DNA of 56,521 bases from a virus. A program made the translations under genes and the position numbers. Shown piece by piece: positions 4,142 to 55,157 of this stretch; within the stretch, counting starts at the first letter, position 1; each line of letters begins with the position of its first letter. Location of the stretch: positions 1-56,521 of the IMG/VR virus record IMGVR_UViG_3300020152_000005. One strand, 5' to 3'. The notes under the pieces were generated by a model that was not told the DNA's origin, did not search any database, and saw only the letters and a program-made list of their open reading frames with translations.

Positions 4142-4184
4142 GCGGCTGCTCCCTGCTCGAGGTTCGGTGCTGCTCTCGAGGGGA

Positions 4185-32242: not shown

Positions 32243-32882
32243 TCAGCTTCAGCGCGAGCTCCTGCGCCATCTCGAGCGCTTCCGGGTCCTCGAGCAGCGC
32301 GCGCAGTGCCGGGTCTTCGTCATGCCCGGCCGAGCCGCCGCCGTCGCGCAGGTCGACGATCGTCTCAGGTTCGCCGCGGTTCAGGCGCTCGAGCTTCGAG
32401 CCCTCGACGATCGCGCGGATCATGGCGTGCGGGCTGATCTTCTCCGGTGACGTGCGCAGCACGTTCAGCACGTTCGCGCCGAGCGTCTGCAGCGCGGTCG
32501 CGAGGCCGATCTGCCGGCGCGCCATCTCCTGCACCTCTTCCTTCTCGGCTTCCTCGCGCCAGCGCCTGCGCTGCTCGTCGACGTGACCGTCCCACGCGGC
32601 CGCGCGTTCGGGCCATCCGTTCTTCGAGCTCCAACGCCCGAAGTAGCCGGGTGCGCGCTCGCCTCGAGGCAGCTTCCGCCCGGTCGCAACCTCGTACGCC
32701 TTGTCGATCGAGCGGTCCTGCGGCAGCAGGTCGCGGTAGGCGACGAATCCGACGAATTGCTGAGCCGTCTCGCCGGGCTGCAGCTCCCACGGCTGCGCGA
32801 CGCGCGGCGTCGCCTTCGGCGCGGCCTTCTTCACGCGCGCCTTCTTCGTGCTCGTCGCCTTCGCCCTCTTCGGCTTCGTCAT
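32223..32882 (-). CDS. terS: Terminase small subunit
   Basis: 219 residues, ATG at 32882. A Lys-rich N terminus is followed by a DNA-binding helical region with YFGRWSSKNGWPERAAAWD (about 81-99), typical of small terminase subunits of the phBC6A51-like type. A coiled-coil oligomerisation region and a C-terminal acidic tail that would contact TerL follow. Its stop lies 20 bases inside TerL. It recognises the packaging site, whose position cannot be read from the sequence. Confidence 0.82.
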   Translation of the reverse strand: MTKPKRAKATSTKKARVKKAAPKATPRVAQPWELQPGETAQQFVGFVAYRDLLPQDRSIDKAYEVATGRKLPRGERAPGYFGRWSSKNGWPERAAAWDGHVDEQRRRWREEAEKEEVQEMARRQIGLATALQTLGANVLNVLRTSPEKISPHAMIRAIVEGSKLERLNRGEPETIVDLRDGGGSAGHDEDPALRALLEDPEALEMAQELALKLNAARGR

Positions 32883-34363
32883 CGGCGCGCCTTCTTCTTC
32901 CGAGGCTTCGCGTCCTCGAGCTCAGGCTCGAGGCCGAGGCGCTCGAGCTGCTCGAGCGTCGCTGCGACCGCGCCCGGTGCGTAGTCGATCGAGCAGCTGA
33001 GCCGTCCGGTCTGCTCCGCTGCGACCGCAACAAAGCCGCCGCCGGCGAAGAGATCGAGCACGACGTCGCCCGGTGCGGTGCTGTTCACGATGCCTCGAGC
33101 GGCGAGCGCTGCAGGCTTCTGCGTCGGGTGCAGGTAGTCGTCGCGCGGGTCGCGCTGAATCTCCCAGAGGTCAGACGTGCCGGGGTTCGGGATCAGCAGC
33201 AGGCTGCCCTTCTCGGGGAACGTCACGCGGCGGATCTTCGCCTTGTCAGGGACCTTCGCGCTCAGGAAAACCTCGACGCCCTCGTCGAGCAGGACCGCGA
33301 GCCCTGCGATGTTGTCGAGCGCGATCGGCGTCGTCGCGCCCTTGCCGCGGCGCGGCGTGATGCGCCAGACCGTCGACTGTGTCCGGTCGCCGTAGTGCTT
33401 CGGCGAGACGCCCGCGCGGCCGCCGTAGAATGCCGCCTCGTGCTGATAGTGGAACGTCGACCGACCGAGCACGAAACTCTCTTTCGCCCAGATCAGGTAC
33501 TGACGCTCCTGAAAGCCTGCGTTCTCGAGCGCGCGCTCGAAGGCGCGGCGGCCGTCCTTGTCAGCGTGCCAGACGTAGACGGCAGCGTCCTGCGCGAGGT
33601 GCGGGCTACCGGCGCGCAGCGCGAGCTCGAGCAGCTCCTGCAGCGCTCGGCCGTGCAGGTCGTCGTTCTGGACGCGCTTGTGCTTCGGGCTCGCCTCGTA
33701 CTCGACGCCGTACGGCGGGTCGGTGAAGAGCAGCTGCGCCGTCGTGCCGTTCATGACGCGCGCGACGAGCTCCGGGTCGCGGCTGTCGCCGCAGCCGATG
33801 CGGTGCGCGGCTCCCGGCGTCGTGATGCTCGGGACCGTCCAGAGCTGGCCGCGGTCGGTGCCCCACTTCTGCACGAGCCGGTCGGCGACGGCTTCCCACG
33901 GATCGTCGCTTACCTCGCTGACGTCCGCGGTGAAGCTGCTCAGGTCGGCGAGCAGTTGATCGAGGTCGTCAGCGTCGTAGCCGGTGCCGCTGAGGCTGCT
34001 CGTCTGCTCGAGGATCTCGGCGAGCACCTGCGCGAGGCGCTCGTCGCTGTACGTGCCGAGGTCGGCGATCCGGTTGTCGGCGATCAGAATCCTGAGCGCG
34101 GTCGCGTCGTCGACGTCGAGGATCTCGGCAGGCACTGAGCTCTCGCCGCGGTGCGCGGCCGCGAGGTAGCGGTGATTGCCGGCGAGGATGTATCCGGTCC
34201 GCTTCTGCACGAGGATGCGACCGTACCATCCGTTGACGTCGATCGATTCGACGATCGCGCCGACGTCGCCCTGCTTCGGGTTCTTCGGGTGCGGCCGCAC
34301 TTCGTCGAGCGCGACGTCGCGCAGCTCGCTCTTCACGCGTCGCATGTTGCCGGTCTTCGTCAT
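32879..34363 (-). CDS. ParB-domain / DNA methyltransferase fusion
   Basis: 494 residues, ATG at 34363. The first 130 residues form a ParB/sulfiredoxin-like domain (VRPHPKNPKQ, ILAGNHRYLAA, ADNRIADL). A permuted amino-methyltransferase follows. Its catalytic TDPPYG is near 213-218, and the AdoMet-binding LDLFAGGG near 435-442 comes after it, as in the beta class. HPTQKP precedes the AdoMet motif. It probably methylates adenine N6 or cytosine N4 in DNA; the ParB part may find or open the target. The tail is Lys/Arg-rich. It lies directly before the terminase genes, so methylation may be linked to packaging or defence evasion (inference). Confidence 0.92.
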   Translation of the reverse strand: MTKTGNMRRVKSELRDVALDEVRPHPKNPKQGDVGAIVESIDVNGWYGRILVQKRTGYILAGNHRYLAAAHRGESSVPAEILDVDDATALRILIADNRIADLGTYSDERLAQVLAEILEQTSSLSGTGYDADDLDQLLADLSSFTADVSEVSDDPWEAVADRLVQKWGTDRGQLWTVPSITTPGAAHRIGCGDSRDPELVARVMNGTTAQLLFTDPPYGVEYEASPKHKRVQNDDLHGRALQELLELALRAGSPHLAQDAAVYVWHADKDGRRAFERALENAGFQERQYLIWAKESFVLGRSTFHYQHEAAFYGGRAGVSPKHYGDRTQSTVWRITPRRGKGATTPIALDNIAGLAVLLDEGVEVFLSAKVPDKAKIRRVTFPEKGSLLLIPNPGTSDLWEIQRDPRDDYLHPTQKPAALAARGIVNSTAPGDVVLDLFAGGGFVAVAAEQTGRLSCSIDYAPGAVAATLEQLERLGLEPELEDAKPRKKKARR

Positions 34364-45033: not shown

Positions 45034-45321
45034 TTAGTGCTTCGGTACGTGCGGGTAGTCGGCTGCAACCGGGAATCGCAGCATGCCTTCGACCGGCAGC
45101 CAGCGGCCGCGGCGAGCCCAACGCTTGCGCGTCGGGTCCCAGAGCGTGACGAATCCCTCAGTGCCTCGCCACGTGCGCACGGTGCTGCCTGCGCCGGCGT
45201 GTCTGACCGCGGCGAGCCGCGGCGGTGTCACGACGACGCCCCAGACGCCGCTGCGTCGCTTCGGGATCGTGACGATGACAAGCTGCTGATCGTTCAGCGC
45301 CTCGAATTCCTTTCGCGTCAT
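45034..45321 (-). CDS. Hypothetical protein, 95 aa
   Basis: ATG at 45321 (MTRKEFEALNDQQLV). A small beta-rich, basic protein with several Trp residues. It is coupled upstream and lies 24 bases before the clamp gene, with two GAGAGCAC-type ribosome sites in the gap. No family is recognised. Confidence 0.75.
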   Translation of the reverse strand: MTRKEFEALNDQQLVIVTIPKRRSGVWGVVVTPPRLAAVRHAGAGSTVRTWRGTEGFVTLWDPTRKRWARRGRWLPVEGMLRFPVAADYPHVPKH

Positions 45322-46761: not shown

Positions 46762-47186
46762 TCCATCTCCAGATCCAGAAGTGAAACGTCGACCGCGCTC
46801 AGCGGCGGGTCGTGATCGAAGAAGCCCGGCGGCGGATCGAAGTTGTATCTGCTCGGGTTCTCGTGACGATGCTGTAGCCGCAGCATCGCGCCCCAGACGT
46901 CGAGGTAGGCGTCGTGCCGGTCCTGCGCCTGCACGCTCGCCTTGAAGTTGTCGTAGTCGATCCGGTCGACCGCGCGCAGCATCGCGGCCGCGAGCCTCGA
47001 GCGCGTGACCGTTGCGCGGAAGAGGTAGTCAGCCTGCGGCGTCTTCCGCGCACGGATGCGCGGCCCGCGCGTGCCCGCGAAGGCGCGTTCGATATCGCCC
47101 TTCACGCGAGCGCGCACGAGCAGCTTCTCGCTGTCGTCGCGGTCCGCGACGATCGAGATCATCGCGTCGTTCAGGAAAACCCACAT
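46758..47186 (-). CDS. Conserved phage protein, 142 aa
   Basis: ATG at 47186 (MWVFLNDAMISIVADRD). The pattern LVRARVKGDIERAF, ADYLFRATV, IDYDNFKASV and RHDAYLDVWGAMLRLQ is one I associate with a phage family without assigned function. It ends with an acidic tail. Coupled on both sides. Confidence 0.78.
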   Translation of the reverse strand: MWVFLNDAMISIVADRDDSEKLLVRARVKGDIERAFAGTRGPRIRARKTPQADYLFRATVTRSRLAAAMLRAVDRIDYDNFKASVQAQDRHDAYLDVWGAMLRLQHRHENPSRYNFDPPPGFFDHDPPLSAVDVSLLDLEME

Positions 47187-48028
47187 CAGAGCGCCTCGGG
47201 TGAAAAGGTGCTGACGACCATCCGGTCTTCGGCGACGTCGCCGCTGCTCGGAATGTCGGCGTCGAGCAGCACGAGCTGCTCGAGGATCATCGTCAGGTCG
47301 CCGGCGAATTCGTCGTAGCCGGGTCCGGCCGCGCTGAGCTCGTTGCGCGCGAGCGCCAGCAGCTGCCGCGCTCGAGCTCCGGGCCGCTGGCTGATGTCGA
47401 TCAGGCCCTCGGGTACGGGCTCCGGTTCGCGCGCGAGCTCGCGCACGTGCGCCGCGGTGATCGACGCCTGCTGCTCGCGTGCAAGCTGCTGCTGCTTCCG
47501 CTTCGGCAGGCGCGCCGCCTTGAACGCTACGCCCGGTGCCATCAGGCCGGTCGCGAGCCTGAAGCGCAGATCCTCGACGAGCCCGGTCAGGCGCAGCAGC
47601 TTCTTCAGGCGCTTGCCGTCGACGCCTAGCTGCTCGCCGATGTCGCGCAGCGTGATGCCCGGCACCTTCAGCAGGCGCTCGGCCGCCTCGAGCTCGTCGA
47701 CGATGTTCCTCTCACGCGTCAGGTTCTCGCTCATTGCGATCGCCTTCGCGACGTCGTCGCTCGTGCCCGGCGGCAGCACGAGCGACGGCACGGCCTTCCA
47801 GCCGAGCTCGCGCGCGCAGCGAATGCGGTGCTTCCCTGCGTCGATCCGGTAGCCGCCCTCGCGCTCGGTCAGCACGACGTTCTGCAGCATGATCCCGGTC
47901 GACTGCAGGTTGCGCAGCAGCGACGCGCGCAGGTCGACGTGATCCGTCGACGCGATCAGATCGAGCGGTACGTCGCGGCGCTCGCCGGCGATCGGCCCTT
48001 CAGCGAAGAGCAGCGTCTGCTCGCTCAT
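47186..48028 (-). CDS. ParB/KorB-like protein
   Basis: 280 residues, ATG at 48028 (MSEQTLLFAEGPIAG). The ParB N-terminal domain is marked by GYRIDAGKHRIRCAREL (about 69-85) and AIAMSENLTRERN. A helix-turn-helix (ITLRDIGEQLGVDGKRLKKLL) follows, and a helical C terminus. ParB-like phage proteins may regulate genes, nick DNA or bind CTP. No parA is present, so partition is unlikely. Confidence 0.88.
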   Translation of the reverse strand: MSEQTLLFAEGPIAGERRDVPLDLIASTDHVDLRASLLRNLQSTGIMLQNVVLTEREGGYRIDAGKHRIRCARELGWKAVPSLVLPPGTSDDVAKAIAMSENLTRERNIVDELEAAERLLKVPGITLRDIGEQLGVDGKRLKKLLRLTGLVEDLRFRLATGLMAPGVAFKAARLPKRKQQQLAREQQASITAAHVRELAREPEPVPEGLIDISQRPGARARQLLALARNELSAAGPGYDEFAGDLTMILEQLVLLDADIPSSGDVAEDRMVVSTFSPEAL

Positions 48029-48255
48029 CGCGGGTCCCGCAGGCTCTCGGTTGGTGCGACCGGCGGCGTCCATGCTTCGTAGCCGGCGCGCTCGATCGAG
48101 AGGCCCGCCTTCGTCGCGTCGTTCAGCCGGGCCGTGTGCGTCGCGACCGGACGCCCGGTGCCGACCGAGCTCTTGCACTGCTCGCCGATGGCTGCGCCGC
48201 AGCGCCTGCAGGCGACGGGGAAGGCTCGACGGTACTCGAGGCTGCTGCTGCTCAT
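48025..48255 (-). CDS. Zinc-finger protein, 76 aa
   Basis: ATG at 48255. CRRCGAAIGEQCKSS then THTARL (about 17-44) is a CCCH-type zinc knuckle common in small phage and actinobacterial proteins. Function unknown. Confidence 0.75.
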   Translation of the reverse strand: MSSSSLEYRRAFPVACRRCGAAIGEQCKSSVGTGRPVATHTARLNDATKAGLSIERAGYEAWTPPVAPTESLRDPR

Positions 48256-49023: not shown

Positions 49024-49059
49024 CTGAGGTTCTCCGGTTCGGTGCTGCTCTCGGGTACG

Positions 49060-49650: not shown

Positions 49651-49675
49651 TTGCCGTTCTCCGGTTCGGGGTTCC

Positions 49676-49742
49676 GTGCTGCTCTCGAGGTACAAGGTAA
49701 ACCCTTCCGCTTGCGCCCGCAAGGGGCAAGAAAAAGCCCGGC
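49676..49742. repeat. Copy 2 of the 67-bp terminator/promoter module
   Basis: 66 of 67 bases identical to 2815-2881. The single difference is in the promoter spacer next to the -10. Confidence 0.9.
49694..49722 (-). promoter_or_regulatory. Early promoter, class with CGAGAGCAGCAC box
   Basis: Minus strand TTGCGG (49722-49717), 17 bases, TACCTT (49699-49694), then six bases and the box CGAGAGCAGCAC (49687-49676). It drives the solo gene at 49108-49650. Confidence 0.75.
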
Positions 49743-50950: not shown

Positions 50951-51967
50951 TTACTGCAGGCGCAAGCGGCGGTCCGGGCCAGTCAGCTCGACGAGCTGCG
51001 CGTTCTTCGCCAGCCTCGAGAGCACGCGGTCGATCGCCCATCCGGCTTCGCTGTCCTGCAGCGCCTGCTCGCGCAGCTCGGCGAGCCTGAAGTTGCTCGT
51101 GACGACGGTCGCGCGACCGGCGCGCTCTTCGGCGATCGTCGCCATCGTCTCGATCGTGAATTCGGTCCAGCGCGTTGTACCGAGGTCGTCGAGCACGAGC
51201 ACGTCGGGTGCGGTGCAGCGGCGCACGATGTCAAGCGCGCTCTCGTCGCTGCTGTCGCTGAACGTCGCGCGGATCTCGAGCAGCAGCTTCGGCGCGTAGA
51301 CGTAGCGCACGTCGCGACCGGGCTCGAGGCCGTCGAGCAGCAGCTGCCGCACGATCGATACTGCGAGGTGCGTCTTGCCGTTGCCCGGCGCGATCCGCTG
51401 GCCGGGTCGCCGGCTGCTCAGGTAGAGCCGGCGGTTACGATCGCCGGACCTGATCGCGTTGACGAATGCGACCGCGGCGTCGTACGCGTGCCGGTCGTGC
51501 TCGAGGCTGAAGCTCTCGAAGGCTGCGCTGCCGTACTCGTCGACGTTCACGCCGGCGAGCTCGAGCAGCTCGAGGATGCGCGCGGGTCGATTCGCAAGGT
51601 GCGCGCGGCGTTCCTGCTCGGCTTCCTCGCGCGCGAGCTGCTCGAGCTCGCGACGCTCGGCGACGATCTCGCGCTGGCACTCGTCGCACGGATGCGCCGC
51701 GTGCAGCTTGCCGTCGATCAGGTACGCGCCGACCGTGTTCGGTCGCTCGCGTTTCCGCAGCTCGCACTGCGGGCAGGTTACGCGGCCGTCGCACGTGTTC
51801 GGCTCGCGCGGCCCGATCTCAGCCTTTGCCTGCTCCTGCAGCGCCGGCGGAAGGTCCGCCAGTGTCGACGCTGAGCTCGTCGAAGGGGCTGCTCCCGCCT
51901 CGCGTCCTGTTCGTTCCCTGTAGCGTCGCGCCAGCTCGGCGACGTCGACCTTCTCCGGTTCGCTCAT
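50951..51967 (-). CDS. Helicase loader, DnaC/IstB-like AAA+ ATPase
   Basis: 338 residues, ATG at 51967 (MSEPEKVDVAELARRY) behind AGGAGAGAGCACGG. The N-terminal part has a zinc-finger pattern (CPQC ... HPCDEC near 65-100). The AAA+ domain has Walker A APGNGKTHLA near 188-197 and Walker B VLVLDDLGTTRW near 252-263. It probably loads the host DnaB helicase at the phage origin. The gene overlaps the initiator by 149 bases, unusual here. The start is supported by its ribosome site. Confidence 0.9.
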   Translation of the reverse strand: MSEPEKVDVAELARRYRERTGREAGAAPSTSSASTLADLPPALQEQAKAEIGPREPNTCDGRVTCPQCELRKRERPNTVGAYLIDGKLHAAHPCDECQREIVAERRELEQLAREEAEQERRAHLANRPARILELLELAGVNVDEYGSAAFESFSLEHDRHAYDAAVAFVNAIRSGDRNRRLYLSSRRPGQRIAPGNGKTHLAVSIVRQLLLDGLEPGRDVRYVYAPKLLLEIRATFSDSSDESALDIVRRCTAPDVLVLDDLGTTRWTEFTIETMATIAEERAGRATVVTSNFRLAELREQALQDSEAGWAIDRVLSRLAKNAQLVELTGPDRRLRLQ

Positions 51968-52673
51968 CCGTGCTCTCTCCTGTTGCATCGCGTGCGGCCG
52001 TCTCGACGAATCGCCGGAAGAATCGGCCGTTGTAGTCGTGCCCTTCAGCTGCGTACCTCTGCAGCGCGGTCGCCATCGCCTGCGGTCGCTTTTCAGCCGG
52101 CAGGCTGCCCCACGCTCGCGCGTCGGTGCCGTTCGGTCCGTAGAGGCCATGCAGCCCGACGAGCGTCGTGTCGCTCGCGCCGCAGGCCGTCGTGAAGAGC
52201 TCGAGCGCCGCCCGGCCATCCTCGCCGAGCCACGTCTCGAAAGCCCTCGCGCGGTCTGATGCGCTGATCGGTTCCGTTCGGGTTCCCTTACGGTTCATGG
52301 GGTCCCGCTGCGGGACGGCAGGGGTCCCGGCGCGGGACGGTAGGGGTCCCGCTGCGGGACGGGGGGGTCCCGCTCTGGGACCCTCGTCGGTCACGAGCTC
52401 GAGCTGCTCGAGCGCCGTGATCGTGTAGCTCGTCGACGTCTGCTGCCCGCCGTCGCGGAAGCGCTGCTGCCGAGCGATGACGCCGTCGCGCTCGAGCTCG
52501 TCGAGGTAGCGGAGTATCGTCGACCGGCCGAGGCAGGTCATCTTCTGCAGCCGGCGCAGGCTCGGCCAGCAGACGTGATCGTGATTCGCTGCGTCTGCGA
52601 GCGCGACGAGCAGCAGCTTCTTCCCGCTCGGAAGCTCCTGCTCGAAGGCCCACGTTATCGCTTGAAGGCTCAT
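51819..52673 (-). CDS. Replication initiator (lambda O-like) with iterons in its gene
   Basis: 284 residues, ATG at 52673 (MSLQAITWAFEQEL). The N terminus is a winged helix of the phage replisome-organiser type: SGKKLLLVALADAANHDHVCWPSLRRLQKMTCLGRSTILRYLDELERDGVI. A Pro/Gly-rich linker near 97-125 is encoded by four iterons. The C-terminal domain (about 135-235) should bind the loader or helicase. The arrangement, an N-terminal origin-binding domain, iteron-encoded linker, C-terminal domain, then a loader gene, is that of lambda O/P. The last ~50 codons overlap the loader. Confidence 0.86.
   Translation of the reverse strand: MSLQAITWAFEQELPSGKKLLLVALADAANHDHVCWPSLRRLQKMTCLGRSTILRYLDELERDGVIARQQRFRDGGQQTSTSYTITALEQLELVTDEGPRAGPPRPAAGPLPSRAGTPAVPQRDPMNRKGTRTEPISASDRARAFETWLGEDGRAALELFTTACGASDTTLVGLHGLYGPNGTDARAWGSLPAEKRPQAMATALQRYAAEGHDYNGRFFRRFVETAARDATGESTDERTGEGRRRRAGATLQGTNRTRGGSSPFDELSVDTGGPSAGAAGAGKG
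52302..52381. repeat. Four iterons, probable origin of replication
   Basis: Four 15-bp inverted repeats starting at 52302, 52324, 52346 and 52367 (spacing 22, 22, 21). The type sequence is GTCCCGCTGCGGGAC; the second has GGC and the fourth TCT near the centre. Each is preceded by GGGG or GG. They lie in the linker part of the initiator gene. An initiator dimer would bind each. AT-rich DNA for opening is not obvious nearby. Confidence 0.8.
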
Positions 52674-55110: not shown

Positions 55111-55157
55111 CTGGGGTGCTCTCCGGGGTGCAAGGTTCGGTGCTGCTCTCGGGTGCT

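Follow-up and report, generated by a model that had tools for sequence, protein, structure and literature searches.

Palindromes in the linker of an HTH_36 initiator gene: a putative lambda-like replication origin in a viral genome record and a half-site that varies with the recognition helix

What is the role of four perfect palindromes placed inside a protein-coding gene of a virus? We address this question for a stretch of 56,521 nucleotides (the window), which comprises positions 1 to 56,521 of the IMG/VR virus record IMGVR_UViG_3300020152_000005 and carries genes for terminase, portal and head. For most uncultured phages, to our knowledge, no replication origin has been mapped. The array (52302-52381) consists of four GTCCC-N5-GGGAC palindromes spaced 22, 22 and 21 bp: GTCCCGCTGCGGGAC at 52302-52316 and again at 52346-52360, GTCCCGGCGCGGGAC at 52324-52338 and GTCCCGCTCTGGGAC at 52367-52381, all exact and given without strand. 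Dinucleotide shuffling predicts 0.001 exact copies per initiator gene where four are seen, and none of 3000 shuffles of the linker region gave four equal palindromes of whatever half-site. A scan with 5-bp arms revealed no second array of this kind in the 56.5 kb window. GC skew does not switch at 52.3 kb in this linear record and gives no information on the position of an origin. A lone near-match to the iteron, GTCCCAGAGCGTGAC, is found away from the putative origin at 45136-45150 (+) and is no more than expected by chance.

The palindromes are contained in an open reading frame (ORF) of 284 amino acids (51819-52673, minus strand) that resembles replication initiators. It matches the HTH_36 domain (PF13730, E 1.2e-9) with 38.2 bits, above the curated cut-off of 25; a match to MarR stays below its cut-off, so that HTH_36 alone exceeds its own. 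Several PHROG families of replication initiators match the same ORF, including phrog_1032 'replication initiation protein' (E 2.7e-18), and no match to Phage_rep_O (PF04492) was found for the N-terminal domain. In an AlphaFold model, residues 1-95 fold with confidence into a winged helix, residues ~96-137 form a linker devoid of secondary structure and residues 138-230 make up a helical C-terminal part. The four palindromes span codons 98-124, within the unstructured linker, which is rich in Pro, Gly and Arg. The recognition helix of the model covers residues 50-62 and starts with GRSTILR; codons 50-56 (52506-52526, minus strand) encode its N terminus, the columns that covary with the half-site (see below). 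The adjoining gene (50951-51967, minus strand) encodes a DnaC-like helicase loader (phrog_50, E 9e-42; PF01695, IstB-like ATPase, E 3e-12). A preliminary description, made from the letters alone, had reported four 15-bp inverted repeats in the linker of a winged-helix gene followed by a DnaC-like loader. The repeats, their spacing and their coordinates proved exact, the AlphaFold model places them in the linker, and both profile matches confirm the loader.

Close relatives of this initiator were not found in phages by tblastn at 1e-5, nor by a viral scan. A sequence search of the PDB gave no convincing match, and a fold search returned generic winged helices, including the DnaD N-terminal domain, with marginal E-values. 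Six diverse domains aligned as a scan query showed too little conservation.

The initiator belongs to an operon with the order Erf-like gene, Gp157-like gene, small ORF, initiator and loader, headed by a start-associated, promoter-like element (55134-55150, minus strand; a repeated element with a putative role). Transcription from this element would cross the array. Copies of the element, GAGAGCAGCAC[CGT]GAACC, are located at 55134-55150, 49670-49686, 49036-49052, 4161-4177 and 2809-2825, all on the minus strand; four are exact and one has 1 mismatch, and with up to 3 mismatches allowed 6 are found versus 1.05 expected. They follow a stretch resembling -35 and -10 boxes, often with the inverted repeat CTTGCGGGCGCAAG, and have start codons shortly downstream, so these copies are probably a family of early promoters or leaders. 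Elsewhere in the window, an ORF at 32879-34363 (minus strand) is ParB-like in its N-terminal part and also has a DNA methyltransferase part; it matches phrog_498 (E 2e-94) and several ParB PHROGs (lowest E 2.5e-35). Another ParB-like ORF lies at 47186-48178.

We next asked whether the layout recurs. IMG/VR was scanned for contigs carrying two GTCCC-N5-GGGAC palindromes 4-9 bp apart. This search identified 59 contigs, and for 42 of them the array lies 3' of a profile-detected winged-helix domain in the same ORF. A Pfam scan of 47 array ORFs assigned 29 to Phage_rep_O and 11 to HTH_36. Among bacterial genomes, 15 of 80 loci with the pattern are winged-helix initiators by profile, the others being intergenic or in other ORFs, and the palindrome pattern alone is therefore no proof of an origin. 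Three sets of bacterial loci with the pattern were observed besides. Pseudomonas chromosomes (L078, L106, L111, L114, L115, L118, L127, L145, L149, L154) have GTCCC-N5-GGGAC palindromes exactly 21 bp apart, mostly without an overlapping ORF; these are a repeat element and not phage initiators. Bacteroidaceae/Prevotella genomes (L079, L089, L096, L098, L105, L108, L129, L138, L144, L155) contain several such arrays each, mostly with period 22 and mostly with no ORF over them, and represent a different repeat family. Five Streptomyces loci (L110, L122, L125, L130, L153) have three copies at an exact 24-bp spacing, and no winged-helix gene was detected there.

Selection by protein gives a sample that is independent of the motif. 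More specifically, phage and plasmid records and about 1,700 bacterial genomes were searched for HTH_36 proteins, yielding 156 non-redundant genes; loci L194-L215, whose genomes had been picked for GTCCC arrays, were excluded from these unbiased counts. As an array we counted at least three palindromes that share half-site and spacing and lie in the 250 bp that follow the domain on its 3' side, a rule that is proposed here and is no established criterion. Arrays of this type are found in 49 of the 156 genes, where shuffles predict 0.2. Among 173 other ORFs taken from these loci, 2 contain one (Fisher p 7e-16), and the same search found no array in the winged-helix or C-terminal regions of HTH_36 initiator genes. 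The window initiator, with four equal palindromes directly 3' of its HTH_36 domain, has the same arrangement. The half-sites of HTH_36 arrays include GGTG(C/A)A, CGGA(A/C), GGCA, GTACC, TGCG and others. Judged from these sequences, the layout is general and the half-site specific to the lineage. Two observations count against the reading of the arrays as origins. An array is present in just about one third of the HTH_36 genes selected by protein, and many of the others may hold their origin elsewhere or use sites that the search missed. In addition, for most other HTH_36 genes with GTCCC arrays, no obvious loader-like ATPase was found within 2.5 kb.

An AT-richer stretch accompanies the arrays at a constant position. 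In the protein-selected array genes, the 40 nt 3' of the arrays have a GC content of 0.498 versus 0.619 for the gene (lower in 41 of 47, p 1e-10); the HTH_36 GTCCC class gives 0.484 versus 0.631 (18 of 19) and Phage_rep_O genes 0.336 versus 0.597. The window also shows a drop in GC, to 0.60 versus 0.69; the local minimum, 55% at 52259-52298 (no strand assigned), falls 3' of the array in the sense direction and is the candidate melting tract. This tract is among the lowest 5% of 40-bp stretches across the window (mean 69%, sd 6.5, 5th percentile 57.5%). The dip is real but weak. The earlier statement that no clear AT-rich element adjoins the repeats is to be corrected in that a dip does exist at the expected 3' place.

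Half-sites were also compared with the encoded domain. GTCCC genes are most clearly set apart from other array genes (15 versus 26 genes) by columns at the N terminus of the recognition helix, namely +2, +5 and 0. Using 55 array genes below 60% identity, we compared the similarity of seven helix residues with that of the half-site in a Mantel test and obtained r 0.51, with a partial r of 0.50 (p 2e-4) once the remainder of the domain is accounted for. That remainder hardly correlates with the half-site (r 0.06, p 0.08). When 53 windows of seven columns are ranked by their correlation with the half-site, the helix start comes first, and after removal of the GTCC class the partial correlation between half-site and helix is 0.33 (p 2e-4). 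Post hoc, three helix classes can be described: GRST[VI]xR with GTCCC, xxR[ST]VR with CGGA(A/C) and xxR[AST]VQ with GGTG(C/A)A; the GRSTILR of the window initiator fits the GTCCC class. Likewise post hoc, Arg at helix +5 goes with GGA in 7 of 10 cases (0 of 9 for Gln) and Gln at +5 with GTG or TGCA in 7 of 9 (0 of 10 for Arg).

One clade found by protein alone illustrates the trend: GTCC[C/A] arrays are present at the five loci whose helix reads GRSTVI[RK] and absent from the six loci with an altered helix, one of the six having TGCA-N5-TGCA four times instead. The five include a near-identical pair, and the motif scan had already yielded four of them, so the clade is more an illustration than a proof. 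On a tree built without the helix columns, there are three supported independent pairs and none in the opposite direction, a number with which the independent-pairs test cannot reach significance; shared ancestry behind the covariation is not fully excluded. As a predictor out of sample, a loose GTCCC helix signature performs poorly (GTCCC arrays in 1 of 13, not significant), and a strict one gives 1 of 2 versus 0 of 154 (p 0.013), numbers too small to rely on. From these sequence comparisons it is very likely that, in each case, the in-gene array is bound by the initiator that the gene encodes. That HTH_36 initiators as a class carry their own sites beside their own helix, making each gene a labelled example of a recognition code, we regard as likely.

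The repeat could also arise from the protein, with Pro/Gly-rich linker repeats such as VPQRD yielding a DNA repeat as a by-product. The composition of the linker would suit such an origin, as would the Phage_rep_O genes, where a single frame prevails (72 of 97 copies). Nonetheless, the four copies of the window are translated as GPRAGP, RPAAGP, PSRAGT and VPQRDP (frames 1, 1, 2 and 0), different peptides in three frames. In the HTH_36 GTCCC class the frames are near-even (36/33/26) and the spacings cluster at 21-23 bp, 73 of 94 not being divisible by 3. Copies in all three frames argue that selection acts on the DNA, an argument that is weaker for Phage_rep_O, given its prevailing frame. A protein would moreover have no reason for palindromy, and the half-sites track the recognition helix. 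This explanation is already contradicted and we give it very little credence. The origin reading of the preliminary description was to fall if relatives had lost the repeats while keeping the linker protein; the comparison shows the opposite, a DNA repeat that is retained although the linker is translated from every frame. Selection for hairpins in the mRNA, acting on translation pausing, processing or termination, is an equally remote explanation. A hairpin with a 5-bp GC stem and a 5-nt loop is conceivable for each palindrome, but pairing does not account for a half-site sequence that is common to lineages and tracks a DNA-recognition helix, nor for spacings clustered at 21-24 bp and an AT-rich tract after the arrays.

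A more serious contender, though still improbable, is that the array is an autoregulatory operator only, a roadblock or repressor site of its own operon, and that replication starts elsewhere. The initiator domain also resembles MarR-type repressors, and the covariation equally implies a protein that binds its own gene. Yet the array lies ~300 nt inside the gene and far from the nearest promoter-like element found (55150), the homologues are filed by PHROGs as replication initiators, and the AT-rich dip after the arrays is not needed by an operator. Operator and origin functions could coexist, and autoregulation through the same palindromes is possible in addition to replication.

We therefore favour, with high though not full confidence, the reading that the palindromes are iterons of their own initiator and that, together with the AT-richer stretch on their 3' side, they form the replication origin of the phage. 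It is based on the chance tests, the position-specific enrichment in relatives, the 3' AT dip and the helix covariation; the same four lines support the lambda O/P plan put forward in the preliminary description, with a site array in the gene, the loader next and a melting tract on the 3' side. Each 15-bp palindrome would be contacted by a winged-helix dimer from the N-terminal part of the initiator, through the recognition helix, and with a spacing of nearly two turns the dimers would line up on roughly the same side of the DNA in an O-some-like complex. The DNA beside the array would then melt, at 52259-52298, and the C-terminal part of the initiator would recruit the DnaC-like loader of the adjoining gene, which would bring the host helicase. 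Binding, dimer stoichiometry, melting at this tract, loader contact and firing are what we infer for the window, and one dimer per palindrome, a nucleoprotein complex, melting and helicase loading are drawn by analogy from lambda (PMC7466680).

Comparison with lambda and the Stx phages P27 and 933W (PMC7466680) shows about four sites in the middle of the initiator gene at a spacing of 20-24, an AT-rich tract on the same 3' side, the loader gene next and a TCCC/GGGA half-site. The lambda site is TCCC-N9-GGGA, whereas the half-sites of the window are 4 bp closer (N5), its recognition helix is unlike that of lambda, its candidate melting tract is only weakly AT-rich and its loader is of the DnaC/IstB type. 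The initiator is an HTH_36 protein without a Phage_rep_O match and, on its profile matches, is not a member of the lambda O family. The iteron sequence had earlier been called different from that of lambda; this holds for the spacing between half-sites (N5 versus N9) but not for TCCC/GGGA, common to lambda and many Phage_rep_O genes. Since many of the latter use N5, the N9 geometry is not general to Phage_rep_O. The Phage_rep_O array genes (e.g., L002, L013, L045) share GTCCC-N5-GGGAC, its placement in the gene and an AT tract directly 3'; after most of them comes an ORF that contains a Walker A motif and is DnaB-like or DnaC-like. They differ in belonging to another winged-helix family, in a helix of the type [APST]RQHVTT and in an AT-rich palindrome centre (GAATC, AAATC; members in L002-L060), the HTH_36 centre being GC-richer. 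GTCCC-N5-GGGAC may be common to both families by convergence or by ancient sharing. Paracoccus plasmids (pAES1, pAES7, pMARC3, pMOS2) have Rep proteins with the same Pfam domain and iteron-like repeats, but their oriV is predicted near or upstream of rep, and the accessible part of that report describes no in-coding array (PMC3832669). Stx phages with HTH_36 proteins lack O/P, and no origin or iterons are described for them in the accessible part of the source (PMC8951638). Pseudomonas phage MD8 has repeats within an O-like gene (PMC8508860).

In the open-access literature, to which our comparison was confined, neither a rule of in-gene arrays for HTH_36 initiators nor an initiator recognition code came to light; the proposed code, for which each gene supplies its own label, is the novel point, although its priority is not certain. 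The HTH_36 initiators are a large and little-studied family, and several bacterial phyla have them in their phages, plasmids and prophages. Where a winged helix, equal palindromes about 22 bp apart, an AT-richer tract and a C-terminal domain occur in this order, an origin could be proposed from sequence, and if the recognition code is true, the sites of an initiator would be predictable from its own sequence. With each putative site located in the gene for its own binder, many pairs of helix and site already exist in nature, and these pairs open winged-helix recognition and the joint evolution of initiator and origin to direct tests.
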